Source: Mycolicibacterium komanii
GTDB taxonomy: Bacteria > Actinomycetota > Actinomycetes > Mycobacteriales > Mycobacteriaceae
Reading direction: 5' to 3'
DNA length: 64,000 bases
NCBI RefSeq assembly: GCF_001050035.1
Contig: NZ_CVTA01000065.1
Coordinates: 169,712 to 233,711, forward strand
The notes beneath the pieces are model-generated. The model did no database searches. It was not told the DNA's origin and saw nothing but the letters and a program-made list of their open reading frames with translations. The position numbers and the translations under genes were made by a program. Below, in pieces: positions 9,632 through 46,534 of this stretch (its first letter is position 1; the number at the start of each line of letters is the position of its first letter).

Positions 9632-9634
9632 GCG

Positions 9635-10861: not shown

Positions 10862-10865
10862 TTGG

Positions 10866-13846: not shown

Positions 13847-13961
13847 AGCGGAAGGCTATCGTGGCCGCACTCCCCATGCCGCCGGACACGCGCAGCCTGC
13901 GGACGGCCGATCTCGAACCGTTACGATCCACTTCATCCCGCAGGAAAGGAGCACCCCAGCG

Positions 13962-14426: not shown

Positions 14427-14435
14427 CCGCGCAGC

Positions 14436-17538: not shown

Positions 17539-18071
17539 GCCTGCACGCCTCGGCCGTCGAATCGCTGACCCGTTGGCACGCACCGGACCCCGCACAGGAC
17601 ACCCTGCGGCACGCGGTGCTGGCGTTTCTGGCCGCCCGCTCCGATGGCTGCCTTCGCGAGTGCGCACCCGGTCACGTCACCGGATCGGCGCTGGTGCTCG
17701 ACCACACCGGCACTCGGGCGCTGCTGACCCTGCATCCCAGGTTCGGGCGGTGGCTGCAACTCGGCGGGCATTGTGAGCCAACCGATTCCGATATCGTCGC
17801 CGCCGCATTGCGGGAGGCCACCGAGGAGTCCGGCATCGACGGCCTCATGATCGATCCGGTGATGGCCGCGCTGCACGTGCATCCCGTCACGTGCTCGCTG
17901 GGGATGCCGACCCGCCACCTCGACATGCAGTTCATCGTGCGCGCGCCCGCCGACGCCGAAATCGTGGTCAGCGACGAGTCTTTGGACCTGCGGTGGTGGC
18001 CGTTGGACGCGCTGCCCGACGATTGCGATTTCGGCCTCACTCAATTGGCGGCGGCCGCCCGCGCCAGGTGA
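17535..18071 (+). CDS. Nudix hydrolase
   Basis: 178 residues from a GTG overlapping the fbiB stop (GTGA). The Nudix helix is seen as [10 protein letters not shown]...[10 protein letters not shown] (about residues 77-101). Compared with the classical box there is a Asp in place of the first Glu and one extra residue before REA, a variation found in several actinobacterial Nudix groups. The catalytic REATEESG part is intact, so pyrophosphohydrolase activity is likely. Substrate unknown. Tight coupling with fbiA-fbiB suggests, without proof, clean-up of a nucleotide by-product of F420 synthesis. A strong palindrome starts at its stop codon. Confidence 0.87.
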
Positions 18072-18118
18072 TTTCGGTGCACTACCGATCGCTGAGCGAT
18101 CGATTCTGCACCGAAATC
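18070..18118. repeat. Intergenic palindrome, TTTCGGTGC family, copy 1
   Basis: Outer arms GATTTCGGTGCA (18070-18081) and TGCACCGAAATC (18107-18118) pair perfectly over 12 bp. Inside, CGATCGCT (18086-18093) and AGCGATCG (18095-18102) form a second perfect stem. It begins in the Nudix stop codon and ends 4 nt before the convergent manB stop. Copies 2 and 3 are at 35831-35879 and 53889-53935. Likely role: bidirectional terminator or mobile-like repeat. Confidence 0.7.
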
Positions 18119-18122
18119 GCTC

Positions 18123-19199
18123 CTAAACGTCGGTAGAGAACCGGATTCCGCCGTCGGGAATCGTCACTCCCGGCCACACGCGCGCACCGCGCAGGAGTTC
18201 ACACCGCGCGCCGATGTCGGCGCCGTCGCCGATCACGCCGTCGCGGATCAGCGCCCGCGGACCGATGCGGGCCCCGAACCCGATGATCGAGCGTTCGATC
18301 ACCGCCCCGGCGCCCACCCGCGCGCCGTCGAAGATCACCGCGCCGTCCAGCCTTGCGCCACCGGCGATCTCGGCACCGCGGCCAACCACGGTGCCGCCGA
18401 TCAGCAGCGCACCGGGCGCGACGCCGGCGCCGTCGTGCACCAGTTTCTCGCCGCGGTGCCCGCCCAGCGCGGGTGACGGCGCGATACCACGCACCAGATC
18501 GGCTGAGCCCCGGACGAAGTCCTCCGGTGTGCCCATGTCGCGCCAGTAGGTGGAGTCGACGTAGCCGCACACGCGAAGCCCGTCCGACAGCAGCCCCGGG
18601 AACACCTCACGTTCGACCGAGAGCGCGCGGCCCTTCGGTATGCGCTCGATGACCTCGCGCTTGAACACATAACAGCCGGCGTTGATCTGATCGGTCGGCG
18701 GATCCTGGGTCTTCTCCAGAAAGGCGGTCACCATGCCCTCGGAGTCGGTTGGCACACAACCGAACGCCCGGGGGTCGCCGACGCGCACGAGGTGCAGCGT
18801 CACGTCGGCGGCGTTGTTCTCGTGGCAGTCCAGCAGCGCGCGCAGGTCGGCGCCGGACAACACGTCGCCGTTGAACACCAGCGCGGTGTCATGGCGCAGC
18901 TTGCCGGTGACGTTGGCGATGCCGCCGCCGGTGCCCAGCGGTTCGGTCTCGACCACGTACTCGATCTGCAGCCCGAACTTCGACCCGTCGCCGAACTCCG
19001 ACTCGAACACCGCGGCCTTGTACGACGTGCCGAGCACGACGTGTTCGATGCCGGCCTCGGCGATGCGCGACAGCAGATGCGTCAGGAATGGCAGGCCGGC
19101 CGTGGGCAGCATCGGCTTGGGAGCGGACAGGGTCAGCGGCCGCAACCGGGTCCCCAGCCCGCCGACGAGGATGACGGCGTCGACTTGTGCAGGATTCAC
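18123..19199 (-). CDS. manB: Mannose-1-phosphate guanylyltransferase
   Basis: 358 residues. Makes GDP-mannose from mannose-1-phosphate and GTP, the donor for phosphatidylinositol mannosides, lipoarabinomannan and protein mannosylation. The nucleotidyltransferase signature GGLGTRLRPLTLSAPKPMLP is at about residues 13-32; LVFNGDVLSG marks the metal site. The C-terminal third is a left-handed beta-helix with hexapeptide repeats (IGGTVVGRGAEI, VIFDGARVGAGAVI, DGVIGDGADIGARC). GTG start overlaps the wbbL stop. Corresponds to Rv3264c, named manB there; the longer upstream frame lies within wbbL and is not coding. Confidence 0.95.
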   Translation of the reverse strand: MNPAQVDAVILVGGLGTRLRPLTLSAPKPMLPTAGLPFLTHLLSRIAEAGIEHVVLGTSYKAAVFESEFGDGSKFGLQIEYVVETEPLGTGGGIANVTGKLRHDTALVFNGDVLSGADLRALLDCHENNAADVTLHLVRVGDPRAFGCVPTDSEGMVTAFLEKTQDPPTDQINAGCYVFKREVIERIPKGRALSVEREVFPGLLSDGLRVCGYVDSTYWRDMGTPEDFVRGSADLVRGIAPSPALGGHRGEKLVHDGAGVAPGALLIGGTVVGRGAEIAGGARLDGAVIFDGARVGAGAVIERSIIGFGARIGPRALIRDGVIGDGADIGARCELLRGARVWPGVTIPDGGIRFSTDV

Positions 19200-20083
19200 T
19201 TGCGCCGTCCTTTCGCCCCTCTGCGACGTGAGTTGCGGACCACCAGGCCCGCGCGCGCGGCGAGCGAACTCCGGATCGTCCACCGCAGCGGACCCTGCCA
19301 CCACCGGGGGTACCGATCCGCGAGAAAAGTGTAGGTGCTGGTGTGATGGGCGGCCAAGTTGCGCGCGGGGTCCTTGCCGGTCGCGTGCCCCTTGGCGTGC
19401 AAAACCTCGGCCGACGGGACGTACACGTTCTGCCAGCCGGACCGCGACAGCCGATCTCCGAGGTCGACGTCCTCCATGTACATGAAGTAGCGCTCGTCGA
19501 AGCCCGTGATCTGTTCGAACGCCGACCGGCGCAGCAACAGGCACGATCCCGACAGCCAGCCGACCGGGCGTTCGCTGGGCTCCTGACGCTCCTGGCGGTA
19601 TTCGGCGGTCCACGGGTTGGATTTCCAGAACGGTCCCACCACCGCGTGCATGCCACCGCGCACCAGGCTCGGCTGGTGGCGCGCCGACGGATACACCGAA
19701 CCGTCGGGGTCGCGGATCAGCGGCCCGAGCGAACCCGCGCGCGGCCAGCGCCCGGCGGCCTCGAGCATGATGTCGATGCTGCGCGGGCCCCACTGCACAT
19801 CGGGGTTGGCCACCACGAAGAAGTCGTTGTTGTCCGAGTCCTTCACGTACTCGGCGACCGCGCGGTTGATCGCGCTGCCGTAGCCGAGATTGCCGCCCAT
19901 GCGCAGCAATCGGACGTTGGGATAGCGCGCTAGCGCCTCTTCGGGTGCACCGTCGGTCGAACCGTTGTCGGCCATCACCACGGTCACCGGCCGGTCCGTG
20001 GCGTGCGACAGCGAGGCCAGGAACCGGTCGAGATGCGGGCCGGGTGAATACGTCACCGTGACGACGATCAACTCGTCACTCAT
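19196..20083 (-). CDS. wbbL: Rhamnosyltransferase WbbL (decaprenyl-PP-GlcNAc rhamnosyl transferase)
   Basis: 295 residues, GT2 family. Transfers rhamnose from dTDP-rhamnose to decaprenyl-diphospho-GlcNAc, completing the linker between peptidoglycan and arabinogalactan. GT-A motifs: VVTVTYSPGPHLDRFLASL, VVMADNGSTDGAPE (nucleotide-binding), FFVVANPDVQW (metal site), GWLSGSCLLLRRSAFEQITGFDERYFMYMEDVDLGDRL (acceptor region with ED). The C-terminus is basic (RNSRRRGAKGRRK), suited to membrane contact. Orthologue of Rv3265c (wbbL1). Lies 18 nt behind rmlD and overlaps manB. Confidence 0.95.
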   Translation of the reverse strand: MSDELIVVTVTYSPGPHLDRFLASLSHATDRPVTVVMADNGSTDGAPEEALARYPNVRLLRMGGNLGYGSAINRAVAEYVKDSDNNDFFVVANPDVQWGPRSIDIMLEAAGRWPRAGSLGPLIRDPDGSVYPSARHQPSLVRGGMHAVVGPFWKSNPWTAEYRQERQEPSERPVGWLSGSCLLLRRSAFEQITGFDERYFMYMEDVDLGDRLSRSGWQNVYVPSAEVLHAKGHATGKDPARNLAAHHTSTYTFLADRYPRWWQGPLRWTIRSSLAARAGLVVRNSRRRGAKGRRK

Positions 20084-36745: not shown

Positions 36746-37024
36746 GTCACGAGTCTCCGATGTGGATCGAGTTTCGACAAAATTGCCATTTCTCAGCATT
36801 CCGAACGTTCTGACCAGCGGTTACGGTAGCGATTTCGATATTGATTGTGCATGGTCAGTAAGCAGCGTAGGGTTCAATCCAGGTTGAGTTCACAGCCAAG
36901 CTGGAACGTCATCGACGTGCAGGGCAGAACTCCCGCCCATGCTGCGAAGGCTTTGAATACGCAGGGCCCCAAATTTTTGACGTGAACCACAGTACGAATG
37001 ATGCATTCACTGATGGAGTCACAC
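36746..37024. promoter_or_regulatory. Divergent region upstream of the STAS gene
   Basis: 279 nt, noticeably less GC-rich than the flanks (for example CCCAAATTTTTGACG near the STAS gene). I searched for the SigF pattern and did not find a good match on either strand. An ATG at 36998 is an alternative STAS start nine codons earlier. No other gene-like frame is seen. Confidence 0.3.
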
Positions 37025-37468
37025 ATGTCTATTTCTCATTGCACATCCCTTTCCATTGCCGGAGCACAGTCGGTTGAAACACGCGATTGCCACACCGCGC
37101 ATTTCGCCACGCGCCGGCTGACAGCCGACACCGCGATCGTCTCCGCCCACGGTGAGATCGACGCGGCGAACTCCCAGGAGTTCGTCAACTACGCGATGCG
37201 CAACGCCGACGAGCTCGAGCGCCTCGTGATCGATCTGTCAGGCGTCGAATTCTTCGGCACCGCAGGTTTTTCCGCGCTGCACACGCTCAATGTGCGCACT
37301 GCGGGCGAGAAGATCGACTGGGCGTTGGTGCCGAGCACATCGGTCAGCCGGCTGCTGCGGATCTGCGATCCGGATGCTGCGTTGCCCGTCCGCGACAGCG
37401 TTTCGTCGGCGCTCTCTCCCGACGAGCCAAACCGGCCGTTACTGCAACTGGTCCCGGAGTCGCGCTAG
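37025..37468 (+). CDS. STAS-domain protein, putative anti-anti-sigma factor
   Basis: 147 residues. STAS fold: TADTAIVSAHGEIDAANSQEFVNYAMRNADELERLVIDLSGVEFFGTAGFSALHTLN. In anti-anti-sigma factors the residue after D/G in the LSGVxFxDSSG loop is phosphorylated by the RsbW-type kinase; here the loop is FFGTAGF, so Thr79 is the candidate site. The start has GGAG 6 nt upstream. It is convergent with sigF and their coding ends overlap by 30 nt. Binding to the RsbW protein encoded 750 nt away is an inference from the pairing; M. tuberculosis uses the unlinked RsfA and RsfB for this job. Confidence 0.85.
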   Translation: MSISHCTSLSIAGAQSVETRDCHTAHFATRRLTADTAIVSAHGEIDAANSQEFVNYAMRNADELERLVIDLSGVEFFGTAGFSALHTLNVRTAGEKIDWALVPSTSVSRLLRICDPDAALPVRDSVSSALSPDEPNRPLLQLVPESR

Positions 37469-38227
37469 CGATTTCGCGAGCAATCGCGACACGTGCATCT
37501 GCGAGATGCCCACGCGCTCGGCGATCTGCGTCTGGGTGAGCGACTCGAAGAAGCGCAGCAACAACACCGTTCGTTCGCGCTCCGGCAGCGCAGCGAGCAA
37601 GGGCCGCAACGCTTCCCGGTTCTCGATCTGGTCGAGACCGAGGTCGACGTCGCCCAGGGTGTCGGCGATTGCCGGGGCGTCCTCAGTCCCGCTGCCGCCG
37701 CTGTCGATCGACAACGTGTTGTAGGAGCTGCCTGCCACCAGGCCCTCGACGACCTCATCGCGGTCCATGCCCAGCTCCGCGGCCAGCTCCGACGCCGTCG
37801 GGGCGCGGCCGAGCCGCTGGGACAACTCCGCGGTGGCTGCGCCGAGGCGCAGGTGGAGTTCCTTGAGTCGCCGCGGCACCTTCACCGACCAACTGTTGTC
37901 GCGGAAGTGCCGACGGACCTCACCCATGATGGTGGGCACCGCGAACGAAACGAAGTCCGAGCCGGCTTCGACGTCGAACCGGATCACCGCGTTCACCAGT
38001 CCGACGCGGGCCACCTGGACGAGGTCCTCGCGCGGCTCACCGCGCCCGTCGAAGCGACGCGCGATGTGGTCGGCCAACGGTAGACAGCGCTCGACGATGC
38101 GGTCGCGCTGCCGCTGGAATTTCGGCGAGTCCTCCGGCACGTTCTTCAGCTCGCGGAACATGTCGGCGACATCCGCGTACTCAGAGTTCGAACGCGACGA
38201 CGAACCCTGTGACGTCGACGGCGTCAC
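37439..38227 (-). CDS. sigF: RNA polymerase sigma factor SigF
   Basis: 262 residues. Group 3 sigma factor of the SigB/SigF/SigG type for general stress and stationary phase. Region 2: ADHIARRFDGRGEPREDLVQVARVGLVNAVIRFD, FVSFAVPTIMGEVRRHFRDNSWSVKVPRRLKEL. Region 3: GRAPTASELAAELGMDRDEVVEGL. Region 4: LPERERTVLLLRFFESLTQTQIAERVGISQMHVSRLLAKSLARLR. GTG start overlaps the rsbW stop, so production is coupled to its antagonist. Rv3286c equivalent. The upstream continuation of the frame lies in rsbW and is not coding. Confidence 0.96.
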   Translation of the reverse strand: MTPSTSQGSSSRSNSEYADVADMFRELKNVPEDSPKFQRQRDRIVERCLPLADHIARRFDGRGEPREDLVQVARVGLVNAVIRFDVEAGSDFVSFAVPTIMGEVRRHFRDNSWSVKVPRRLKELHLRLGAATAELSQRLGRAPTASELAAELGMDRDEVVEGLVAGSSYNTLSIDSGGSGTEDAPAIADTLGDVDLGLDQIENREALRPLLAALPERERTVLLLRFFESLTQTQIAERVGISQMHVSRLLAKSLARLRDQLQ

Positions 38228-38655
38228 TGCAGCGTCGCTCGTCTCGTCGTCATGGAGATCCCGAACACCTGAGCGTTCTCGGGCCCCTGCCCATTCTCGA
38301 AGGTCTTCACTTCGTCGGTCAGTGAGCTCAGCACGTGCCAGCTGAAGCTTCCCGGCGCCAGAATGTCGGAACTCTTGCACGTCGTGGACGCGTCGATGAC
38401 GACCGCATCCTCGCGTGGGTCGATGACGAGCAGCAGTGTGGAGTTGGGCACCGCGGACCGGATCAGCCTCGTACACGCTTCGTCGACCGCTAGGCGCAGG
38501 TCGGCGACGGCATCGAAGTCCAGATCCTCGAAGGTCGCCACCGCGGCGACCAGGGTGCGCAGAACCGCTAGGTTCTCGAGTTCGGCGGCGACCCGGAGTT
38601 CCACCGACCGCGCGCCGTGCCCGTGCCCATTGTTCTTTTTGGCGACGTCGGCCAT
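38224..38655 (-). CDS. rsbW: Anti-sigma F factor (RsbW/UsfX)
   Basis: 143 residues, GHKL ATPase/serine kinase-type anti-sigma factor that holds SigF inactive. N-box VDEACTRLI (usually DEACTNAI) around residue 58 and SFSWHVLSSLTDEV near 104 fit the fold; the glycine-rich G1 box is weak, as in the mycobacterial UsfX group. GGGAGG lies 4-6 nt before the ATG. Rv3287c equivalent. A SigF-type promoter sits about 30 nt upstream of the ATG, implying feedback control of the rsbW-sigF operon. Confidence 0.93.
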   Translation of the reverse strand: MADVAKKNNGHGHGARSVELRVAAELENLAVLRTLVAAVATFEDLDFDAVADLRLAVDEACTRLIRSAVPNSTLLLVIDPREDAVVIDASTTCKSSDILAPGSFSWHVLSSLTDEVKTFENGQGPENAQVFGISMTTRRATLQ

Positions 38656-38683
38656 TTGACCTCCCGGCAATGTCGAAGCGAGA

Positions 38684-38710
38684 TTACCCCAGGTCGGATC
38701 CCACCTAACC
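38684..38710 (-). promoter_or_regulatory. SigF-type promoter of rsbW-sigF
   Basis: Minus strand GGTTA (-35, 38706-38710), 16 nt, GGGTAA (-10, 38684-38689). The mycobacterial SigF consensus is about GGTTT-N15/17-GGGTA. The expected start is near 38677, 22 nt before the ATG. One of six comparable sites between 38.6 and 45.8 kb. Confidence 0.65.
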
Positions 38711-38741
38711 ACGAGTACTCCGCCTACCCGCGGACGATGAC

Positions 38742-38766
38742 GTGTGCCGCACGCCAGCGCGGGTAT
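38742..38766 (+). promoter_or_regulatory. Weak SigF-like promoter toward topoisomerase IB
   Basis: Plus strand GTGT (38742-38745), 15 nt, GGGTAT (38761-38766): the -10 is perfect but the -35 has one mismatch. It would produce a leader of about 140 nt before the topoisomerase ATG, containing a 27-codon frame and overlapping G/C-run hairpins. Lower confidence than the other sites. Confidence 0.35.
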
Positions 38767-38875
38767 TTACCCCGCCATGGAGAAGGCCCCACCGCGCACG
38801 CGCCCGCTCGAAAGGCGAACACGACTGTGACGAGCGGCGTTTTGATGGCGCGACGAAGTAAGACTTCTCCATGGT

Positions 38876-38905
38876 GGGGGTTCAGTACCCCCCTGCACTC
38901 GGGGG
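38876..38905 (+). promoter_or_regulatory. Mutually exclusive hairpins at the topoisomerase IB ribosome site
   Basis: A GGGGG run (38876-38880), a CCCCCC run (38888-38893) and a second GGGGG run (38901-38905) are spaced by 7 nt loops. The C-run can pair with either G-run. The second G-run lies 6 nt before the ATG at 38912 and is the only Shine-Dalgarno-like element there, so pairing choice could open or close the start. A short frame (38845-38928) runs through this leader. Structure-based inference. Confidence 0.35.
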
Positions 38906-38911
38906 CCAAAC

Positions 38912-39943
38912 ATGCGTCTACGCCGTAGCGTTGTCAGCCGCCCCGGCCTGCGCCGGGTACGTCGCGGCCGCGGGTTCTCCTACGAACACGCCGACGGCAG
39001 CCCGGTCACCGACGAGAAGACCCTGCAGCGCATCAAGGATCTGGTCATCCCACCCGCCTGGAAGAAGGTGTGGATCTGCCCCTACCCCAACGGGCATATC
39101 CAAGCGGTGGGCACCGACGCCGCGGGGCGGCGCCAGTACCTCTACCACCAGAGGTGGCAGGAGGAGCGCAACGAGGAGAAGTTCGACCGCGTCCTGGAGA
39201 TGTCGGCTGCATTGCCCGAGATGCGCAGGAGCATCGCCGCGGATCTTCGCCGTCGCGGGCTGCACCGCGACCGGGTGCTCGCCCTCGCGCTGCACCTGGC
39301 CGACCTCGGATACTTCCGGGCGGGCTCCGAGCAGTACGCCGAGGAGAACAACTCGTACGGCATCGCGACGCTGCTCTGCGAGCACGTCACGCTGCAGCGC
39401 AATGCCATCGAGTTCGACTTCCCCGCCAAGAGCGGCGTGCGGCGCACCCTGCTGATCGACGACCCCGAGGCGGTCCGCTCGATCCGCGCGCTGTTGCGCC
39501 GCCCGGAACGCACCGAGCGGCTGCTGGTGTGCCGCAACGGTTCGGGCTGGATCGACATCCACGCCGACGACCTGAACACCCGGTTCAAGGAACTCGTCGG
39601 CGACCGGTACACGATCAAGGACCTGCGCACCTGGCATGGCACGGTGCTGGCCGCCGCCGCATTCGTGGACGCGGACCCACCCGTCAACAAGACCGTCATC
39701 AAGCGGGTCGAGTCCGCGGTGATGAAGGAGGTCGCCGAGGAACTCGGCAACACGCCCGCGGTGGCCCGTAGCTCGTACGTCGATCCGCGAGTCGTGCAGG
39801 CCTACGAGTCCGAGCTCACGATCGCGGCGGCCGTCAAGCGCGCCGCGAAGGCGAAGACCCTGGCCGACCGCCAGGAGGTGCTCGATCGCAGCACGGCACG
39901 CCTCATCCGCAAAGCGGCGCGTCAGGCGGACGCTCGCAGCTGA
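38912..39943 (+). CDS. DNA topoisomerase IB
   Basis: 343 residues. Eukaryote/poxvirus-type topoisomerase that nicks and religates one strand to relax supercoils of both signs. N-terminal VRRGRGFSYEHADGSPVTDEKTLQRIKDLVIPPAWKKVWICP and GHIQAVGTDAAGRRQYLYH are family hallmarks. Catalytic residues: Arg in RAGSEQYAEENNSYG, Lys nearby, TIKDLRTWHGT (Arg and His), and the nucleophile Tyr in SSYVDPRV (about residue 289). A counterpart has been described in M. smegmatis, while M. tuberculosis lacks it. Its 3' end overlaps the glycosyltransferase gene by 22 nt. Location in a SigF-type cluster suggests a role under stress. Confidence 0.93.
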   Translation: MRLRRSVVSRPGLRRVRRGRGFSYEHADGSPVTDEKTLQRIKDLVIPPAWKKVWICPYPNGHIQAVGTDAAGRRQYLYHQRWQEERNEEKFDRVLEMSAALPEMRRSIAADLRRRGLHRDRVLALALHLADLGYFRAGSEQYAEENNSYGIATLLCEHVTLQRNAIEFDFPAKSGVRRTLLIDDPEAVRSIRALLRRPERTERLLVCRNGSGWIDIHADDLNTRFKELVGDRYTIKDLRTWHGTVLAAAAFVDADPPVNKTVIKRVESAVMKEVAEELGNTPAVARSSYVDPRVVQAYESELTIAAAVKRAAKAKTLADRQEVLDRSTARLIRKAARQADARS

Positions 39944-41049
39944 CTCAACCGGCTGTAGATCTGTTCACAGTCGGATGCGACCCGATCCCACGAGTAGCGG
40001 GCCCGCGCGCGGTCACGCCCCGCGGCCCCCATGCTCTGACGTAGGAAGTCATCGTGGAGCAACCGGTTCACCGCCTTCGGCAACTCACCCGGTCGTGACG
40101 GGTTGATCAGGTAACCGGTGACGTCGTGCACAACCGCGTCGACCATCACGCCGCACGTCGCCACAACCGGCACACCGCACGCCATCGCTTCCAAACCGCC
40201 GGCATTCTCCGGCGTGCAGACCACGACGTCAGCGGACCTGAGTACCGCGGGTAGCTCCTCGCGTGGTATCGAAGCCCGGATCTGCAACCGATGCGCCACA
40301 CCCAGTTTCGCGGCCAGCCCAGTCAACTGATCCGACTCCGAATCGAAGTCGCTACCGGAGCCGTCGAACCCACCGATGAGTAGCAACTCCGCGTGGGCGA
40401 TGTTCGGTAACGCCCGGATGATTGTGTCGAAACCGCTGCGCGACACCAACTGACCGATGCTCACAATGCGCTGCACGTCACTTCGGGCAGCGACAGGGCC
40501 GTCCGAATTGAAGAGTTGTAGGTCCACTCCGGTGGGAACTACGGAAAGTCGGCCGCGCGGCACACCCAGACGCAACAGTCGAGAACCGTCGTCGGTCGAG
40601 GCAGCCGTGACCCAGGAGGCACTTCGGGCTACCAGCGCGTCGAGGTGACGACGCGGATGGCCGCTCTCGACGGCGACGCGGTGCGCATCAGATGCGTGGG
40701 CGGGAAGGGTCTGAACCGTCGGCAGATCGAGATGGCGCGCAGCGAGTTGCGCCGCAACGCCGGACATTCCGAAATGGCCATGCACCGTGTCGGGGCGGTC
40801 GGCCGCCCACTCCGCGTCGAAAAATCGGGCCAACGACTCCGTGCATGCAGGAAGATCGCCTTCGGGAAGCGGGGCCGGGCCCTCCGGTAGGTGCACAACG
40901 GAATAGCCCCGCGGTGTCAGCGTGCGATCGCGCGACCCTCCATGGTCACCGTGGGAATACACCGTCACGAGGTGGCCGCTTCTCGCCAATGCGGACGCCA
41001 GCTCTGCGATACGCATGTGGTGAGCATCGGACACCATGGCGATCTTCAT
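39922..41049 (-). CDS. GT4-family glycosyltransferase
   Basis: 375 residues. GT-B fold: MKIAMVSDAHHMRIAELASALARSGHLVTVYSHGD starts the N-terminal Rossmann domain, and the C-terminal domain has VSIGQLVSRSGFDTIIRAL, the donor site ENAGGLEAMACGVPVVAT (E-x-GG-x-EAMA), and VTGYLINP. SVVPTGVDLQLFNSDG is the usual inter-domain linker. Donor and acceptor are unknown. A SigF-type promoter is found about 100 nt upstream. GAGG lies 5-6 nt before the ATG. Possible role in a stress-induced glycolipid, saccharide or glycosylated compound. Confidence 0.88.
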   Translation of the reverse strand: MKIAMVSDAHHMRIAELASALARSGHLVTVYSHGDHGGSRDRTLTPRGYSVVHLPEGPAPLPEGDLPACTESLARFFDAEWAADRPDTVHGHFGMSGVAAQLAARHLDLPTVQTLPAHASDAHRVAVESGHPRRHLDALVARSASWVTAASTDDGSRLLRLGVPRGRLSVVPTGVDLQLFNSDGPVAARSDVQRIVSIGQLVSRSGFDTIIRALPNIAHAELLLIGGFDGSGSDFDSESDQLTGLAAKLGVAHRLQIRASIPREELPAVLRSADVVVCTPENAGGLEAMACGVPVVATCGVMVDAVVHDVTGYLINPSRPGELPKAVNRLLHDDFLRQSMGAAGRDRARARYSWDRVASDCEQIYSRLSQLRASA

Positions 41050-41150
41050 CAGTGCCTCGGCCCCCGACCGAACGGCCGAATACGCTGGGCGCGCGCACAT
41101 TCGGGCCGATCGGACACCCGAGTTAGCGACGGCGGAGACACAAGGGCCGC

Positions 41151-41176
41151 CTACCCGAGCGATTCTGCGCCAAAAC
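41151..41176 (-). promoter_or_regulatory. SigF-type promoter of the glycosyltransferase gene
   Basis: Minus strand GTTT (41173-41176), 16 nt, GGGTAG (41151-41156). The expected start is near 41144, with a leader of about 95 nt. It is back to back with the plus-strand site at 41271-41295, so one spacer carries two divergent SigF-type promoters. Confidence 0.6.
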
Positions 41177-41270
41177 GGTCCGCGGATCACTCTTCGCACG
41201 CCGGATAAACCTCGTTCGCAATACGGACTATCGACCTCCCCGGCCGTCATGTGCCGCGTCCGCGACGATC

Positions 41271-41295
41271 GTTTCGCCCTGCACGGCCCGGGTAC
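41271..41295 (+). promoter_or_regulatory. SigF-type promoter of the Nramp/PRC operon
   Basis: Plus strand GTTT (41271-41274), 15 nt, GGGTAC (41290-41295). The -10 is inside a CGGGTACCCG palindrome. The start would fall near 41302, so the first ORF (ATG at 41305) would be almost leaderless, which fits the absence of a Shine-Dalgarno sequence. Confidence 0.65.
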
Positions 41296-41304
41296 CCGAC
41301 CGAC

Positions 41305-41508
41305 ATGTCAGACAGCGAACGCCTGCCCGACGACGTTCCCGTCGCCGACGCGGTGGAGCAGCAGCGCGACACCCGCGAACCGGTACTCGACGAGGAAGCC
41401 AGCGCAGAGCCCGAGCAGAATCCGCCGCTGGAGGCCCCGCCCGCGGACTGGCAGGAGCAGCTCGAGCCGGTGGAGATCGACGACGAGGACGACACCGTCG
41501 GGGACTGA
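41305..41508 (+). CDS. Small acidic protein, unknown
   Basis: 67 residues, very acidic: about 23 Asp/Glu and few bases (DSERLPDDVPVADAVEQQRD, DWQEQLEPVEIDDEDDTVGD). Proline-rich and without predicted helix breaks other than prolines; probably disordered. I recognise no family motif. First gene of a likely five-gene operon (next start 14 nt after its stop). The ATG at 41305 rather than an upstream start is chosen because it lies just behind a SigF-type promoter; the upstream 18 codons (arginine-rich) read through that promoter. Could act as an ion-binding or protein-interaction partner of the downstream transporter (inference). Confidence 0.6.
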   Translation: MSDSERLPDDVPVADAVEQQRDTREPVLDEEASAEPEQNPPLEAPPADWQEQLEPVEIDDEDDTVGD

Positions 41509-41522
41509 TTGGCAACCGTCCG

Positions 41523-41984
41523 ATGGCCGGCCGCGAGGGCATTCGACGTCTCCAGGGACCACTGGCCCTGCTGGTAATACTCGTCGCGCTCGGGCTGCTG
41601 CTCACGTGCTGCCCGGCCAATCGCGACGGGATGCCGGGCCAACTCGCCAGTGCGATGGAGGAGACGGCGTCAGCCGCGCGCAGCGGCGCCGCGGCGTTGG
41701 AGCTGTGGTCGCAGGGACGGTCAACCGCTCAGCTGGCGGGTGTGCAGCTCTCGGACGCCCGCACTGACGTCGTGAAGGCGTATCAGGGGGTCGCCGATCT
41801 GCGCGCCCGCGATTCCGTCGACGTCGGGCGTCAGCGCATGCTGACCGACTCGATGACCGACATCATCGGCATCCTCAACGCCGCAGCGGCCAGTATCAGA
41901 CAGGTCAACAGCGAACCGGCCCCGCAGCGGGCCCGCGCTAAACTCCTGGCCGCGGCGACCGCGCTCGAAAGCCGTTACCGCTGA
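41523..41984 (+). CDS. Membrane-anchored or lipoprotein-like protein, unknown
   Basis: 153 residues. Basic N-terminus (MAGREGIRRL), a hydrophobic segment PLALLVILVALGLLL (13-27), then TCCPANRD. The LLTC sequence is a poor lipobox (Thr before Cys), so it is either a lipoprotein or a single-pass anchored protein. The remaining 120 residues are Ala-rich helices (QLASAMEETASAARSGAAALELWSQGRS; VDVGRQRMLTDSMTDIIGILNAAAASIRQV), likely a coiled-coil bundle facing outward. No family recognised. Its stop overlaps the Nramp-like start by 1 nt (TGATG), so the two products are probably made together. Confidence 0.72.
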   Translation: MAGREGIRRLQGPLALLVILVALGLLLTCCPANRDGMPGQLASAMEETASAARSGAAALELWSQGRSTAQLAGVQLSDARTDVVKAYQGVADLRARDSVDVGRQRMLTDSMTDIIGILNAAAASIRQVNSEPAPQRARAKLLAAATALESRYR

Positions 41985-43213
41985 TGAAGAAGCTCCTGTC
42001 GGTCGCGCTCGGGATACTGACCGCGATCGGCGGATTCGTCGACATCGGCGATCTGGTCACCAACGCGGTGGTGGGGTCGCGATTCGGAATGGGACTGGCC
42101 TGGGTCGTGGTCGTCGGCGTCGCGGGAATCTGCCTGTACGCCAACATGGCCGGCCGGGTAGCGGCCGTCAGCGGTCGCGCGACCTTCGAGATCATCAGAG
42201 AGCGGCTCGGCCCGCGCACCGCGGCCGCGAACCTCGCGGCGTCGTTCTTCATCACGCTGATGACGTTGACCGCCGAGATCGGCGGGGTGGCCCTGGCCCT
42301 GCAACTGGCCACGGACGTCGGCCCGATGATGTGGATTCCCGTTGCGGCGTTCGCGGTCTGGGTGGTGGTATGGCGGGTCAAGTTCAAGATCATGGAAAAC
42401 GTCGCGGGCCTGTTGGGCCTGTTCTTGATCGTATTTCTCGTCAGTGTGTTTCTGCTGCAACCGGATTGGGCCGACCTCGCCGACCAGGCGATGACTCCCG
42501 TCATCCCTGAGCAGGAATCCGCGGCCACCTACTGGTACTTCGCCATCGCCCTGTTCGGTGCGGCGATGACGCCGTACGAGGTCTTCTTCTTCTCCTCCGG
42601 AGCCGTCGAAGAGCATTGGACCCGAAAGGATCTGAGCACATCCCGGGTCAACGTGCTCGTCGGTTTTCCTCTCGGGGGTCTCCTGTCGCTCGGCATCGCG
42701 GCCTCGGCAGCGATCGTCCTACTCCCCCAACAGATCGAGGTGACCTCGCTGTCGCAGACGGTCATGCCGGTCGTGGCCGCCGGCGGAAAGCTCGCGCTGG
42801 CGTTCGTGATCGTGGGCGTCGTCGCGGCGACGTTCGGCGCGGCCCTGGAAACGGCGCTGTCCAGCGGATACATCCTGGCCCAGTTCCTCGGCTGGCCGTG
42901 GGGCAAGTTCCGGCGTCCCGCCGAAGCCGCCCGCTTCCACGTCGTCATCTTCGTTGCGATCGTCGCCTGCGCGGCGGTGTTGTTCACCGGAGTCGACCCC
43001 ATCCTCGTCACCGAGTACTCCGTCGTGTTCTCCGCCATCGCGCTTCCGCTGACCTACCTGCCAATCCTGATCGTGGCCAACGACTCTCAGTACATGGGCG
43101 GCGAGACCAACGGAAGGGTGACGAACACGCTCGCCTCGGTGTATTTGGTGGTCATCGTCGCCGCCTCAGTGGCGGCGATCCCGTTGATGATCGTGACAGG
43201 AGCGGGACAGTGA
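41984..43213 (+). CDS. Nramp-related metal carrier with altered metal-site motifs
   Basis: 409 residues, about 11 membrane segments. The overall order follows Nramp/SLC11, but the two hallmark loops differ: TM1 normally DPGN reads DIGD (D20-D23, GGFVDIGDLVTN) and TM6 normally MPHN reads TPYE (about 196-199, FGAAMTPYEVFFFSS). Loss of the TM6 Met ligand and gain of acidic residues resemble Nramp relatives that move harder ions such as Mg2+ rather than Mn2+/Fe2+. The ion is not proven. Middle gene of an operon with PRC-barrel-like proteins. Overlaps the next gene by 4 nt (GTGA). Confidence 0.82.
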   Translation: MKKLLSVALGILTAIGGFVDIGDLVTNAVVGSRFGMGLAWVVVVGVAGICLYANMAGRVAAVSGRATFEIIRERLGPRTAAANLAASFFITLMTLTAEIGGVALALQLATDVGPMMWIPVAAFAVWVVVWRVKFKIMENVAGLLGLFLIVFLVSVFLLQPDWADLADQAMTPVIPEQESAATYWYFAIALFGAAMTPYEVFFFSSGAVEEHWTRKDLSTSRVNVLVGFPLGGLLSLGIAASAAIVLLPQQIEVTSLSQTVMPVVAAGGKLALAFVIVGVVAATFGAALETALSSGYILAQFLGWPWGKFRRPAEAARFHVVIFVAIVACAAVLFTGVDPILVTEYSVVFSAIALPLTYLPILIVANDSQYMGGETNGRVTNTLASVYLVVIVAASVAAIPLMIVTGAGQ

Positions 43214-43605
43214 GCGATCTTCCGGTCAAACGTCATCGCGGTCACCTACTCGACGCCCGACTGCATCTGCTGGACCGCCAGATGCTCGACGACGCGGGCG
43301 ATCCCGTCGGGATCGTCGACGACATCGAGTTGACCGGCATCGAGATGGATCACGAGGTCGCCGCCAACGCCCAGCCGCCGCGGGTGAGTGCTCTGCTCTC
43401 AGGGCAGGTGGTGGCGACGCGCATCTTGGGCGGATCACCTCCTCGTTCGCGGCTGCAGGAGATTCCCTGGCGCCTGGTTGCCTCGGTCGGGGTGGTCGTC
43501 AGGCTCAAGCCCACAGACTTGACGTTCGATGTCGGCTGGGTTGAACGCTGGCTGCGCGACCACATCGTCAAACGCGTTCCGGGAGGCCGACATGCGGCTG
43601 AGTGA
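43210..43605 (+). CDS. PRC-barrel-like protein A
   Basis: 131 residues from GTG over the Nramp-like stop. RGHLLDARLHLLDRQMLDDAGDPVGIVDDIELTGIEM resembles the PRC-barrel start (LLDRQLVDxxGxxVGKVDDLEL), the small beta barrel also found in RimM and in some magnesium-transport proteins. The C-terminal part VGVVVRLKPTDLTFDVGWVERWLRDHIVKRVPGG is not assigned. Likely soluble. The pairing with an Nramp-like carrier suggests an accessory or sensor role. Overlaps the next gene by 14 nt. Confidence 0.7.
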   Translation: MSDLPVKRHRGHLLDARLHLLDRQMLDDAGDPVGIVDDIELTGIEMDHEVAANAQPPRVSALLSGQVVATRILGGSPPRSRLQEIPWRLVASVGVVVRLKPTDLTFDVGWVERWLRDHIVKRVPGGRHAAE

Positions 43606-43936
43606 ACTGCTGGGGCTGCGCGTCGTCGACGCCCGCAACCAGCGGGTCGGCACGGTGATCGACGTCCGCCTCGCCATCAGCGGCGACCCGGCCGACGACC
43701 CGCCGGCGCCGCGGGTGCTGGGACTCGTCGTGAGCCCCAAGACGCGGTCGTCGTTCTGGGGTTTCGAGCGGTCGGGGGCGACCGCCCCGGCGCTGCTGGC
43801 GCGGATCGCCAGGTGGCGACACCGCGGAACGTTCCTCGCGGCGTGGGAGGACGTCGCCCGTGTCGGTTCGGACAGCGTGCGGTTGCGGGCCGATTACACG
43901 CGCTTCTCGGCGATGCTGCCCGGCGCGGGCGTTTAG
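43592..43936 (+). CDS. PRC-barrel-like protein B
   Basis: 114 residues. MRLSELLGLRVVDARNQRVGTVIDVRLAISGD matches a PRC-barrel N-terminus (LLGxxVxDxxGxxVGxVxDVRL), and RVLGLVVSPKTRSSFWGF continues the barrel. GGGAGG lies just before the ATG, inside the end of the previous gene. The two PRC-like genes look like separately encoded barrels that could pair. The stop (TTTAG) overlaps the -35 of the csbD promoter. Confidence 0.7.
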   Translation: MRLSELLGLRVVDARNQRVGTVIDVRLAISGDPADDPPAPRVLGLVVSPKTRSSFWGFERSGATAPALLARIARWRHRGTFLAAWEDVARVGSDSVRLRADYTRFSAMLPGAGV

Positions 43937-43956
43937 CCGGTGAGGGCCTCGGGAAC
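43931..43956 (+). promoter_or_regulatory. SigF-like promoter of the csbD gene
   Basis: Plus strand GTTT (43931-43934, overlapping the stop codon of the preceding gene), 16 nt, GGGAAC (43951-43956). The same -10 variant occurs at 45777-45782 with the same 16-nt spacer. The start would be near 43963, 58 nt before the CsbD ATG. Confidence 0.5.
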
Positions 43957-44020
43957 CCGACACCTGCGCGAGGAAGTTCCTCGTGATTGGACTGAATCCA
44001 CTCCACTGCGGAAGGTGAAC

Positions 44021-44257
44021 ATGACCGAGAAGAACAGTGGCCCTGAAGAAGGCATCAAGGGCGTCGTCGAAGACGTCAAGGGCAAGGCGAAGGAAACGGT
44101 CGGCACTGTCACCGGCCGCGACGACATGGTTCGCGAGGGCAAGGCCCAGCAGGACAAGGCCGATGCCCAGCAGGATGCGGCCAAGAAGGAAGCCGAGGCG
44201 GAGTCCGCTCGCGCAGGCGCCGAAGCCGCTGAGAAGCGCCAGGAAAACGAGCAGTAA
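44021..44257 (+). CDS. CsbD-family stress protein
   Basis: 78 residues, very hydrophilic. GIKGVVEDVKGKAKETVGTVTGRDDMVREGKAQQDKADAQQDAAKKEAEAE is the CsbD signature (GxxKxxxGKxKExxGxxTGxxxxxxEGKxQxxxGxxQ), followed by an Ala/Glu-rich helix. CsbD is controlled by SigB in Bacillus subtilis; its biochemical function is unknown. GAAGGTG precedes the ATG. It has its own SigF-like promoter and ends at a bidirectional terminator. Confidence 0.9.
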   Translation: MTEKNSGPEEGIKGVVEDVKGKAKETVGTVTGRDDMVREGKAQQDKADAQQDAAKKEAEAESARAGAEAAEKRQENEQ

Positions 44258-44271
44258 TTCGGATCGAAAGC

Positions 44272-44303
44272 AGAAAAGCCCAGCCGATCGGCTGGGCTTT
44301 TCT
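44272..44303. terminator. Bidirectional intrinsic terminator
   Basis: A perfect 32-bp palindrome (core AAGCCCAGCCGATCGGCTGGGCTT) bounded by CAGAAAAG and CTTTTCTCTTT. The GC-rich stem is followed by T-runs on both strands, so it can end transcription from both the csbD gene and the convergent UsfY-like gene (stop 44314). It is the most canonical terminator in the window. Confidence 0.9.
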
Positions 44304-44313
44304 CTTTCCTACT

Positions 44314-44622
44314 TCAGCTACTGGGTCGTTGCCGCTGAGCGTCGGGATGTTCTGCGTACCAACGTTCTTCGATCTTGCGCACTCGCAGGTGCTCGACCAG
44401 CAGCCACCCGCCGCCGATGATCAACAGCGCGGCAGATCCGCAACCCAGGCCGATACCCACACTGTGATGGCTGGCACCGTGGGCCGCCAGCGCCGAAACG
44501 AACAGCACCAGGGCCACTCCGATGAGGATCAGTCCCGGCAGGTCCTTGCTGTCCTTCATCGTCTCTCCGGCGTGTGGACGTGTCGTCCTCGCGTGATCGA
44601 CGGGATCCTTCGGGCTCTTCAT
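44314..44622 (-). CDS. UsfY-like membrane protein
   Basis: 102 residues. DPVDHARTTRPHAGETMKDSK at the N-terminus and VRKIEERWYAEHPDAQRQ at the C-terminus flank two hydrophobic segments (PGLILIGVALVLFVSALAA; GIGLGCGSAALLIIGGGWLL). The DHxRTTRPxAGE and RRIEERWYAEHP motifs are what I recall for the UsfY family, which in M. tuberculosis is encoded beside sigF (Rv3288c) and in M. smegmatis is strongly SigF-dependent. AGGAG stands 5 nt before the ATG, and a SigF-type promoter is upstream. Role unknown. Confidence 0.75.
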   Translation of the reverse strand: MKSPKDPVDHARTTRPHAGETMKDSKDLPGLILIGVALVLFVSALAAHGASHHSVGIGLGCGSAALLIIGGGWLLVEHLRVRKIEERWYAEHPDAQRQRPSS

Positions 44623-44679
44623 CGGTACTCCTCTCTCGGCATACCTCCGCCCGGCTATGGGCTACTGACAACGCTAGAA

Positions 44680-44704
44680 CTACCCGACCCCAGATGGAAG
44701 AAAC
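44680..44704 (-). promoter_or_regulatory. SigF-type promoter of the UsfY-like gene
   Basis: Minus strand GTTT (44701-44704), 15 nt, GGGTAG (44680-44685). The start is expected near 44673, giving a leader of about 50 nt with AGGAG before the ATG at 44622. The site lies just downstream of the oxidoreductase stop codon. Confidence 0.65.
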
Positions 44705-44719
44705 GGGACCGAAAGGGCC

Positions 44720-45352
44720 TTACCGATAGGACGGGTACACCTCGGCCCGCAGGGCCTTCGCGAGGTGAGCGGCGTTGCGGGCCAACGCAGCAGTCGTCGA
44801 CGCGACCGGCTCGGGGACCTCGTCGAGGTCCCTGTAGTCCGTGCTCTGCATCGCCTCACCCGTCCAGTAGGTGCCCCCCTGGGCCGGAATGCTGTAACCG
44901 ATGTCGTTCAGGCCCTGGAAGCAGTCGGCGATCACCTTGTGCGCACCGTCCTCGTTGCCGACGACCCCGACCACGGCGACCTTGCCGACCATGATCGGCC
45001 GGTCCTCGCCGTCGGTGTTCGACAGCTCGGCATCGAGACGTTCCAGCACCCGTTGCGTCACGCTGGCGGGGTGTCCCAGCCAGATGGGGGTGGACAACAC
45101 CAGGATGTCGGCGCCCAACAGCTTTTCGCGGATCTGCGGCCACTCGTCGCCGTCGCCCATGTCCGCCTCGACGCCCGGTGCGATGGCGTAGTCGACGCAT
45201 CGCACGATCTCGGTCTGGACGCCGGCGGCGCGCAAGTTCCCGCAGATGTGCTCGGCCATCAGCGCGCTGCTCGACTCGGCGGGGCTGGGTTTGAGGCTGC
45301 AGACCAGAGCGACGGCGGTCAACGGGCGGTCGGCGTTCGCCGGTGCGCTCAT
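44720..45352 (-). CDS. Flavodoxin-like NAD(P)H-dependent oxidoreductase
   Basis: 210 residues. VALVCSLKPSPAESSSALMAEHICGNLRAAG (phosphate-binding loop of the NADPH-dependent FMN reductase group) and ADILVLSTPIWLGHPASVTQRVLERLDAEL (the TPIYxG-type flavin loop) identify the flavodoxin fold. VAVVGVVGNEDGAHKVIADCFQGLNDIGY follows. A quinone or FMN reductase activity is likely. ATG overlaps the stop of the upstream membrane-protein gene (ATGA), so both are in one unit with a SigF-like promoter. Confidence 0.87.
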   Translation of the reverse strand: MSAPANADRPLTAVALVCSLKPSPAESSSALMAEHICGNLRAAGVQTEIVRCVDYAIAPGVEADMGDGDEWPQIREKLLGADILVLSTPIWLGHPASVTQRVLERLDAELSNTDGEDRPIMVGKVAVVGVVGNEDGAHKVIADCFQGLNDIGYSIPAQGGTYWTGEAMQSTDYRDLDEVPEPVASTTAALARNAAHLAKALRAEVYPSYR

Positions 45353-45720
45353 CCGCCGAACACCGCGGAACCGGTGAGGGCGGGCATGCTCGTCGTGAGC
45401 ACAAGCAGCATCGACGTCAACAGGAACCATCCCGCGCCCTGCCACGCCGTCGACATCTCGCCTCTGCGCCAGTTCAGATAGGCGCGGAAGAAGGCGCGCG
45501 CCCCGCCCAGGAGCAGAACAGCAGGTGCCGCGAGCGCCAGCAGGGCCCGCTGAGGCGCGCCGCAGGACAGGGTGTCGGCCGTCGCGCCCTGGCAGGTACT
45601 CACCCACACCATCGCGCCGAGCAGGAAGATGGCGCCGGTGGCGCCGATGCCGATGGCGAACCGCACCGCATCGCGGATGCTGGTGTCGACATGTCTCAGC
45701 TCGCTGGAACCGTGGTACAC
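45349..45720 (-). CDS. Three-segment membrane protein, unknown
   Basis: 123 residues from GTG with GGGAG 8 nt upstream. Three hydrophobic segments: AVRFAIGIGATGAIFLLGAMVWV (about 18-40), ALLALAAPAVLLLGGARAFF (about 59-78) and GWFLLTSMLLVLTTSMPAL (about 97-115). Two cysteines (TCQGATADTLSCG) sit in the first loop, likely outside and able to form a disulfide. No family recognised. Encoded before and overlapping the oxidoreductase gene; a membrane quinone link is possible but speculative. Confidence 0.72.
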   Translation of the reverse strand: MYHGSSELRHVDTSIRDAVRFAIGIGATGAIFLLGAMVWVSTCQGATADTLSCGAPQRALLALAAPAVLLLGGARAFFRAYLNWRRGEMSTAWQGAGWFLLTSMLLVLTTSMPALTGSAVFGG

Positions 45721-45776
45721 GACGAGAACTCCCGAATTTGCTGCGCAATCAGCGATATGAATCAGACGCAGAGGGT

Positions 45777-45802
45777 GTTCCCGGCCGTTCGGCTCGGTAA
45801 AC
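45777..45802 (-). promoter_or_regulatory. SigF-like promoter of the membrane protein-oxidoreductase unit
   Basis: Minus strand GTTT (45799-45802), 16 nt, GGGAAC (45777-45782), identical in -35, spacing and -10 to the csbD site. The start would be near 45770, 50 nt before the GTG. It directly follows the PAS-ANTAR stop codon. Confidence 0.5.
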
Positions 45803-45803
45803 C

Positions 45804-46478
45804 TCAGTTTTGAGCGCGATAGTGCGCGGTCAGCAGGAGCCGGTCATAGGTCGAGCGGGGCGGCAACTCTTCGTCGTAGTTCAGCCCGAGGAAGTCCTTG
45901 GCGATTTGCTCGGAGAGGATCCGCAGCTTGGTGTTGGTCTCCTGCGAGCGCCACCGGAGCAACTCGAACGCCGAGTCGGCGGAGATGCGGTAGACCAGCA
46001 TCAGCATGCCCTTGGCCTGCTCGATCGGGCCGCGGGCCTCGGCCATCTCGGTGACGGCCGCACTGAAAACCCGGTCGTGCCGCAGAGACGGGGTGACGTC
46101 GACATAGAACCCGTGCGTTCCCACCACCTGATCGCCGTCGTCGAAGAGTTGGTCGCCGACCACGACGACATGGTGCACCTCGCCGCGGGTGTCGATGATC
46201 CGGTGACGGGTGGAGAACGCGCCCGACGTCCGGCGAATCTCGTCGAGCGTCGCCGCCACCTGCCGGTAGTCGTCGGGATGTTTGTGCGACAGCACCAGTT
46301 CGGTCGTCGGCTGTGCGGTACCCGGCTCGTAGCCGTGCATCCGCTCGACTTGCGGCGACCACTCCCAGTGTTCGTCGGCGAAATAGAACCGGAACCAGCC
46401 CACGCGGTGCGGGTCGCCGCCGGCAAGGGCCTGCTCGACGGGGGTCTGCCCGTTGGACTCGGGCAGCTCGTCTGTCAT
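45804..46478 (-). CDS. PAS-ANTAR RNA-binding regulator
   Basis: 224 residues. N-terminal PAS domain (about 20-140): WFRFYFADEHWEWSPQVERMHGYEPGT, LSHKHPDDYRQV, STRHRIIDTRGEVHHVVVVGD, then a C-terminal ANTAR helix bundle (about 143-205): RGPIEQAKGMLMLVYRISADSAFELLRWRSQETNTKLRILSEQIAKDF, with the conserved EQAKG. ANTAR proteins bind paired hairpins in RNA and stop termination. PAS-ANTAR proteins are frequent in mycobacteria. Target unknown. Divergent from the Mrr-like gene over a spacer containing a palindrome. Confidence 0.9.
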   Translation of the reverse strand: MTDELPESNGQTPVEQALAGGDPHRVGWFRFYFADEHWEWSPQVERMHGYEPGTAQPTTELVLSHKHPDDYRQVAATLDEIRRTSGAFSTRHRIIDTRGEVHHVVVVGDQLFDDGDQVVGTHGFYVDVTPSLRHDRVFSAAVTEMAEARGPIEQAKGMLMLVYRISADSAFELLRWRSQETNTKLRILSEQIAKDFLGLNYDEELPPRSTYDRLLLTAHYRAQN

Positions 46479-46534
46479 GTTCGCAGGTTAACGCCGGTGA
46501 CCGCACACGTGTACTGCAGCAATTCCGTTCGTTC

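Follow-up and report, generated by a model that had tools for sequence, protein, structure and literature searches.

The sigF locus of Mycolicibacterium komanii: a compact block of stress genes with their own SigF-type promoters

The block at 36998..46490 is the usual mycobacterial accA3-sigF-rsbW...lat region. Its best explanation, taken jointly with the working inferred for it below, is very probably a mycobacterial sigF locus where several neighbouring stress genes have SigF promoters of their own. The evidence consists of the sites, their conservation, their geometry and the fact that such sites are nearly lacking before the control genes nearby. The following features were recognised in the window, the whole 64 kb stretch of DNA that was analysed.

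36998..37468, plus strand: STAS protein, RsfA-like, possible anti-anti-sigma factor (Pfam STAS, 45.5 bits)
37439..38227, minus strand: sigF, 262 aa (NCBIfam SigF NF005514)
38224..38655, minus strand: rsbW/usfX, anti-sigma factor of the RsbW1 type (Pfam HATPase_c_2, 33 bits)
38681..38710, minus strand: rsbW-proximal promoter, probably SigF-independent, TAATCT at 38681-38686 (conserved element in orthologues)
38742-38765, plus strand: promoter towards the small ORF and topoIB, GTGT-N15-GGGTA (conserved in topoIB loci)
38777..38830, plus strand: 17-codon ORF, starting 11 nt after GGGTA
38886-38911, minus strand: likely distal rsbW-sigF promoter, GTTT-N17-GGGTA (N15-17 scan, alignment, opposing-site counts)
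38912..39943, plus strand: DNA topoisomerase IB, topoIB (Pfam Topoisom_I and Top1B_N_bact)
39922..41049, minus strand: GT4 glycosyltransferase, GT (Pfam; alignment to orthologues)
41152-41176, minus strand: SigF-type promoter towards GT, GTTT-N16-GGGTA (exact match; also in the nearest genome, G001)
41271-41294, plus strand: SigF-type promoter of the Nramp operon, GTTT-N15-GGGTA (exact match)
41305..43936, plus strand: probable Nramp operon (gene order, Pfam)
43931-43955, plus strand: SigF-type promoter of csbD, GTTT-N16-GGGAA (exact match)
44021..44257, plus strand: csbD (Pfam CsbD, 41.6 bits)
44314..44622, minus strand: usfY (NCBIfam UsfY NF041247, 137 bits, cut-off 100)
44681-44704, minus strand: SigF-type promoter of usfY, GTTT-N15-GGGTA (exact match)
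44720-45352, minus strand: FMN-reductase-like protein (Pfam FMN_red)
45349-45720, minus strand: membrane protein (no Pfam match)
45778-45802, minus strand: SigF-type promoter of the membrane protein/FMN reductase pair, GTTT-N16-GGGAA (exact match)

The sigma factor belongs to the SigF subfamily, with 490 bits against NF005514 (cut-off 372). Its GTG start overlaps the stop of rsbW/usfX, which lies directly upstream with accA3 nearby, as in relatives; this identifies the mycobacterial SigF locus. The 3' end of the STAS gene, whose start codon is uncertain, overlaps that of sigF. The STAS protein is 44% identical to a STAS protein of L023 that is convergent with an rsbW3-like gene there. In a STAS alignment, several G001 rows were in wrong frames and were left out. 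No SigF site lies upstream of the STAS gene in the window or in its orthologues (0/25). The Nramp operon consists of two small proteins (41305, 41523), Nramp (41984-43213) and two further small proteins (43210, 43592), of which the second matches PRC weakly; the same order is found in L005, L015 and L019. The membrane protein and the FMN-reductase-like protein form a pair at 44720..45720 (minus strand). The GT protein is diverged and is shortened at conserved stretches.

In M. tuberculosis, the order of the region is lat-Rv3289c-usfY-usfX-sigF-accA3. Both regions place sigF-rsbW near accA3, with usfY and the gene of a small membrane protein upstream and lat beyond, but here topoIB, GT, the Nramp operon, csbD and the FMN reductase lie between.

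The original prediction named six SigF promoters. Five of them, all at gene starts, match GTTT-N15/16-GGG(T/A)A exactly, with coordinates that needed shifting by no more than one base, and the window holds no others (100 shuffles gave a mean of 0.33 and a maximum of 3). With spacers of 15 to 17 there are six matches, all from 38886 to 45802, and the reversed pattern has none. The prediction had also called for the density of the block to be compared with the rest of the genome. This comparison was made with the genomes of relatives, of which G001 is the nearest: at the density of 19 same-genus genomes 0.15 matches would be expected in 36998-46490 as against the 6 found (Poisson 1.3e-8), and the block is far denser, about 40 times their average. 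In these genomes the pattern occurs 1588 times in 102 Mb and the reversed control 770 times. Since the control reaches about half of the real count, a single match is weak evidence, and the assumption that every exact match is a promoter was rejected. The clustering of the sites, by these counts, and the identities of SigF and UsfY, by NCBIfam scores above the cut-offs, are upheld.

G001 has 103 matches (100 of them listed), and the same five sites recur at C85:71830-76469 with order and orientation unchanged. By a rough scan estimate, the chance of so dense a cluster anywhere in that genome is 2e-4. Another cluster in G001, on C18, has four sites within 6.7 kb; it was set aside, since by eye its ORFs did not resemble a SigF island.

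Conservation distinguishes the sites further. A SigF site is found upstream of csbD in 20 of 22 orthologues, of the membrane protein in 26 of 34, and of the first Nramp operon gene in 4 of 7; in the window, the ATG of the latter follows its site by 10 nt. The control genes have none (accA3 0/57, sigF 0/51, lat 0/16, HGLS 0/18), mobA has one in 11 orthologues, and the reversed control of these counts is 0. Conservation above chance was found for csbD, the membrane protein, the Nramp operon, topoIB (in the GTGT form) and the distal rsbW site. It is weak for GT (1/6, within 350 nt) and for usfY (1/34; among those examined, the site is also present in G001 and L006).

The sixth predicted site, which reads GTTA at 38685-38710 before rsbW-sigF, is a real conserved element, but it is probably not a SigF promoter. 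At a fixed spacing from the ribosome-binding site, TANNNT is present in 56 of 69 orthologues and in 34 of 1311 control windows. Because TANNNT is the conserved part, the proximal site (38681..38710) is probably a SigF-independent promoter. In the window it also reads GGTT-N17-GGGTA, so dual use is possible. This reading, together with the SigF-dependent promoter that drives the usfX-sigF operon of M. tuberculosis in excerpts of PMC7693655, would favour the original view of a genuine SigF promoter. That view is nevertheless improbable: many relatives lack GGG (GGGTA in 28/69) while keeping TANNNT at its spacing, and in M. smegmatis a promoter independent of SigF lies directly before rsbW. If RsbW starts at the upstream codon at 38712, the conservation of the element could partly be coding.

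The likely autoregulatory promoter of rsbW-sigF is the distal site at 38886-38911, which was absent from the original prediction and which abuts the topoIB ATG. In the alignment its spacer has diverged while GTTT and GGGTA were kept. Only 33 of 69 orthologues have an exact site no more than 800 nt away; a relaxed pattern (59/69) was counted without a matching control and was given no weight. The predicted sigF leader RNA folds with a z of -3.7.

A seventh site, at 38742-38766 in the original prediction, had been called weaker. It was rated too low, being a conserved GTGT-N15-GGGTA promoter towards topoIB. Such a site, GTGT or GTTT, is found in 75 of 90 topoIB loci, with GTGT in 71 of the 75 (12 of 102 genomes with a topoIB match were omitted, mostly as partial, split or near contig ends). 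Likewise, GTGT sites occur upstream of topoIB in 14 of 15 cases and in none of ten control gene sets. The 17-codon ORF behind the site is probably, to judge from relatives, the remnant of a near-leaderless gene for a small membrane protein that some of them possess. In head-on loci, the start codon follows GGGWA by 10-11 nt in 32/32 and a hydrophobic segment is present in 6/32. Excerpts of PMC10454040 report that in cold-shocked M. smegmatis the topoisomerase MSMEG_1784 rises 4.7-fold while at least 50 genes of the SigF regulon fall; topoIB is therefore under further control too.

The promoters at 38886-38911 (minus) and 38742-38765 (plus) face each other head-on and are crossed, so that their leaders are predicted to overlap by 106 nt. 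Among the 90 loci, the crossed pair occurs in 32 of the 36 where topoIB adjoins rsbW, and a site opposing topoIB is present in 34 of these 36 as against 0 of the 54 others (reversed control 0). Where both sites exist, 32 of 33 loci are crossed (27 beside rsbW1-sigF, 4 rsbW3-like, 1 rsbW1-like), with overlaps of 40-219 nt (median 106) predicted from promoter positions. In a literature search of titles and abstract openings, no earlier description of the pair was found among the matches listed. The Excludon concept describes overlapping divergent transcripts with long antisense leaders. Here, too, two divergent genes have predicted 5' leaders that overlap in antisense, but both promoters appear to share one sigma factor, and the overlap is a prediction from promoter positions.

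The pair may be a regulatory device that damps or times the autoamplification of sigF and the production of topoisomerase IB, a tentative and rather unlikely reading. Active SigF would fire both promoters, and colliding polymerases or paired 5' leaders (~106 nt) would act. Its crossing in nearly all two-site loci, in two contexts, the restriction of the opposing site to rsbW-adjacent loci and the predicted overlap speak for this. Yet the arrangement is mostly inherited, with 4 label changes on the tree, so the 32 crossed loci are not 32 independent events; the overlap may also merely result from the small ORF between the promoters. A fuller version is somewhat less probable still. In it, the crossed promoters would be kept so that activation drives polymerases head-on over ~40-220 bp, as a built-in sigF brake or timer acting by collision, antisense pairing and local supercoiling relieved by the topoisomerase IB made. 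A large mycobacterial clade would have kept this arrangement by inheritance, and it is also found before rsbW3-like genes.

The sigB operon of B. subtilis is a known example of partner switching. The block resembles it in having a SigB/F/G-type sigma factor, an RsbW-type anti-sigma factor and a STAS protein. It differs in that the STAS gene is convergent with sigF and stands outside the sigF operon; the block also showed no recognisable additional kinase or phosphatase partner. Homology places both an anti-sigma (RsbW) and a putative anti-anti-sigma (STAS) factor there, with one RsbW-type protein found. The claim that the island is self-contained fails, because the nearest genome carries additional STAS and RsbW-like genes at other loci. 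G001 has 12 STAS matches, and of its 18 HATPase_c_2 matches 13 exceed the cut-off; many of the 18 are in long frames that are likely sensor kinases. The matches are spread genome-wide, with one of each at the sigF locus. On C41, a HATPase frame of 138 aa lies next to a STAS frame. In M. smegmatis, the genes for the main antagonist, RsfB, and for its kinase, RsbW2, are not near sigF either (PMC7693655).

In the proposed working of the block, the housekeeping-type promoter just 5' of rsbW would supply a standing pool of inactive RsbW-SigF. Anti-anti-sigma proteins, mostly encoded elsewhere, would remove RsbW and release SigF. Free SigF would drive csbD, the membrane protein/FMN reductase pair, the Nramp operon, usfY, GT and topoIB, and would raise rsbW-sigF through the distal N17 promoter at 38886-38911. 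In this working, each transcript would depend on SigF in Mycolicibacterium komanii, and the block may act jointly as one stress module. Alternatively, and with about an even chance, the clustering reflects shared ancestry and local gene shuffling, with SigF-promoter genes persisting near sigF without benefit. For instance, csbD retains its site in differing places, by rsbW-sigF (L008, L017) or by PRC-like genes (L015, L019), and in G001 some 14 kb separate the five-site block from the sigF promoter. Against this, SigF sites are 7.5 times as dense near sigF as in the genome on average (150 sites in the 1.28 Mb around 70 loci, as against 4 for the reversed control), so their persistence needs some reason.

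Clustering of SigF genes by sigF is already known from M. smegmatis, matched here by gene names and not by sequence alignment. As counted from Table 1 of PMC4694148, 28 of 39 locus numbers in MSMEG_1766-1804 are down in a sigF mutant. The type I topoisomerase MSMEG_1784, with GTGT-N16-GGGTA, is among the genes reported there as down. Excerpts of PMC5445863 term MSMEG_1750-1804 a stress response gene cluster. Both regions have UsfY, a type I topoisomerase, rsbW and sigF, with GTTT/GTGT-N-GGGWA at many genes (PMC4694148). By gene names, the block here differs in being ~9.5 kb and ~15 genes long and in having one RsbW-type protein; topoIB directly adjoins rsbW-sigF with 256 bp between, so there is no chaB there. 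A literature search of titles and abstract openings returned no SigF-heptose link. Since the M. smegmatis counterpart is largely sigF-dependent, the island is a compact further case of a known type of cluster.

This compact, well-conserved SigF island offers material for comparative work. It corrects which site likely autoregulates sigF, 38886-38911 instead of 38685-38710. The sites at topoIB loci suggest that topoisomerase IB may be a widespread mycobacterial SigF target, and the head-on pair provides a concrete hypothesis on how a self-amplifying stress sigma factor may be restrained.

By its sequence, the region is the usual mycobacterial sigF region. The gene order is accA3, a MobA-like gene, a STAS gene, sigF, rsbW, topoisomerase IB (topoIB), a GT4 glycosyltransferase gene (GT), an Nramp operon, csbD and usfY, followed by a membrane protein with an FMN-reductase-like protein, a PAS-ANTAR protein and lat. 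SigF is 100% identical in the best named relatives, Mycobacterium sp. 1164985.4 and 852002-51961, 98% in E740, 96% in M. elephantis and 95% in M. deserti. The nearest genome compared, G001, shares 24% of sampled words with the window; its contig C85 and L003 (strain 852002-51961) are one and the same contig by sequence. The main features are as follows.

36998-46490: block proposed as a SigF island
38685-38710, minus: site proximal to rsbW-sigF
38742-38765, plus: GTGT-N15-GGGTA, toward topoIB
38886-38911, minus: distal site, GTTT-N17-GGGTA, 230 nt upstream of rsbW
38912-39943, plus: topoIB
39922-41049, minus: GT
44268-44303: inverted repeat between convergent csbD and usfY, resembling a two-way terminator (sequence; reverse-strand self-match)
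45804-46478: gene for a PAS-ANTAR protein that may be an RNA-binding antiterminator, immediately upstream of the SigF-type membrane protein pair

The clustering of SigF-type sites proposed in the original prediction is borne out. The 64 kb window holds five exact GTTT-N15/16-GGGWA sites (shuffles: mean 0.33, maximum 3), all of which had already been listed. With N15-17 there are six, spanning 38886 to 45802, and none of the reversed pattern. In 102 Mb from nineteen same-genus genomes there are 1588 exact matches, and 770 for the reversed control; thus 0.15 would be expected in the block, against 6 observed (N15-17). In G001 the same five sites occur in unchanged order (C85:71830-76469); an intervening sugar-gene cassette puts them about 14 kb away from the sigF promoter.

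Conservation was examined in 70 sigF loci (L002-L071, including a few actinobacterial MAGs; the non-mycobacterial or paralogous L072-L081 were excluded). Over a total of 1.28 Mb they carry 150 sites, a density 7.5 times that of whole genomes on average, and four reversed ones. Counting exact same-strand sites up to 350 nt upstream of orthologues, csbD (20/22) and the membrane protein (26/34) have them most often. In the Nramp operon the first gene has one in 4/7, the second in 1/2 and Nramp itself in 0/4; rsbW has one in 20/59, GT in 1/6, usfY in 1/34, topoIB (GTTT form) in 1/15 and mobA in 1/11. None was found for accA3 (0/57), sigF (0/51), STAS (0/25), lat (0/16) or HGLS (0/18), nor any reversed match upstream of the gene sets counted.

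The proximal site, originally read as the SigF promoter of rsbW-sigF, probably does not have that role. It can be aligned between the window and 21 hits (two being one and the same contig), and its conserved part is TANNNT, which precedes the ribosome-binding site by 19-20 nt in 56/69 rsbW orthologues (background 34/1311 control windows), rather than GGGTA (28/69). PMC7693655 and PMC7390352 describe a SigF-independent promoter immediately upstream of M. smegmatis rsbW; by position and sequence, the proximal site probably matches this first of their two promoters. The second most likely corresponds to the distal site, which the original prediction had missed. Its counterparts in L004, L005, L006 and L009 retain GTTT and GGGTA with an altered spacer, and an exact site lies within 800 nt of 33/69 rsbW orthologues. 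The predicted leader (38656-38879) folds better than shuffles (z -3.7). Upstream, the rsbW frame continues without a stop as far as a GTG at 38712, where several relatives have ATG (38655-38712), so RsbW may be longer at its N-terminus.

The site toward topoIB had been noted as a weak seventh. That rating was too low: the GTGT form is conserved before topoIB. In sigF loci GTGT-N15-17-GGGTA lies within 300 nt upstream of 14/15 topoIB genes, with no same-strand match at rsbW or in ten control sets (accA3, mobA, STAS, sigF, csbD, membrane protein, GT, usfY, lat, HGLS); the reversed control matched once, at rsbW. In a wider sample topoIB was matched in 102/148 genomes, and loci from 90 of these were analysed: 75 have a GTGT or GTTT site toward topoIB, 71 of them GTGT (reversed control 0). 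According to PMC4694148, MSMEG_1783-1784 has GTGT-N16-GGGTA and both genes are down in a sigF mutant. Early cold-shock data in PMC10454040 speak against a simple SigF picture for topoIB: MSMEG_1784 rises 4.7-fold while at least 50 SigF-regulon genes fall and MSMEG_1787 (rsbW3) drops more than 8-fold. Six loci (L005, L006, L009, L012, L019, L064) encode a near-leaderless, membrane-like protein of about 39-55 residues upstream of topoIB, starting 7-11 nt after GTGT-N-GGGTA; its probable remnant in the window has 17 codons.

An rsbW gene adjoins topoIB in 36/90 loci (30 with sigF, 5 rsbW3-like, 1 rsbW1-like). An opposing GTTT-N15-17-GGGWA site occurs in 34 of these 36 and in 0/54 loci without rsbW, and the promoters cross in 32/36. 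L120 and L124 lack the opposing site, L168 lacks the topoIB-side site, and L172 is back to back. Assuming a start 7 nt after the -10, the predicted leader overlap ranges from 40 to 219 nt, with a median of 106. A start codon follows the topoIB-side GGGWA by 10-11 nt in 32/32 crossed loci, compared with 6/43 other loci with a topoIB site and 18% by chance at offsets 7-13; 6/32 encode a small ORF with a clear hydrophobic segment. On a tree of topoIB fragments the head-on label needs four changes, and the arrangement is therefore mostly inherited. No earlier report of crossed topoIB/rsbW promoters was found among the listed titles and abstract openings of open-licence papers.

The window GT may be decaying, judging from its sequence. 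It lacks two stretches (near the N-terminus and in the C-terminal half) retained in G001, L005 and L006, and is only 54% identical to its G001 counterpart, against 87-100% for the other genes from topoIB to the membrane protein. In G001 about 13 kb of sugar genes lie between topoIB and the Nramp operon (L082, the C85 stretch, 6680-19451). They encode two heptosyltransferase-family proteins, PfkB-cytidylyltransferase and SIS proteins, a carbamoyltransferase, an NDP-sugar epimerase, an NDP-sugar dehydrogenase and glycosyltransferases; SigF-type sites stand at 16686 and 19831. L002, L004, L007, L012, L013, L023, L063 and L064 carry parts of the cassette at the corresponding position.

The block was also called self-contained, which is not upheld. 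Across its genome G001 has 12 STAS and 18 HATPase_c_2 matches. Of the latter, 13 exceed the cut-off and many lie in long frames that are probably sensor kinases; one is a short frame next to a STAS frame on contig C41. In M. smegmatis the main antagonist RsfB and the kinase RsbW2 are both encoded elsewhere (PMC7693655). The window STAS protein is a plausible antagonist. It is 44% identical to that of L023, which is convergent with an rsbW3-like gene and was taken as RsfA-like by place and cysteines; RsfA has redox cysteines (PMC10950880). The cysteine-rich GACCFAC of L023 is GTAGFSA in the window.

A larger cluster is known in M. smegmatis. By our own count, Table 1 of PMC4694148 gives lowered expression in the sigF mutant for 28 of the 39 loci numbered MSMEG_1766 to MSMEG_1804 (for MSMEG_1803 only in stationary phase), and PMC5445863 terms MSMEG_1750-1804 a stress response gene cluster. 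Given this published, largely sigF-dependent cluster, the window block represents a compact further example of a known cluster type.
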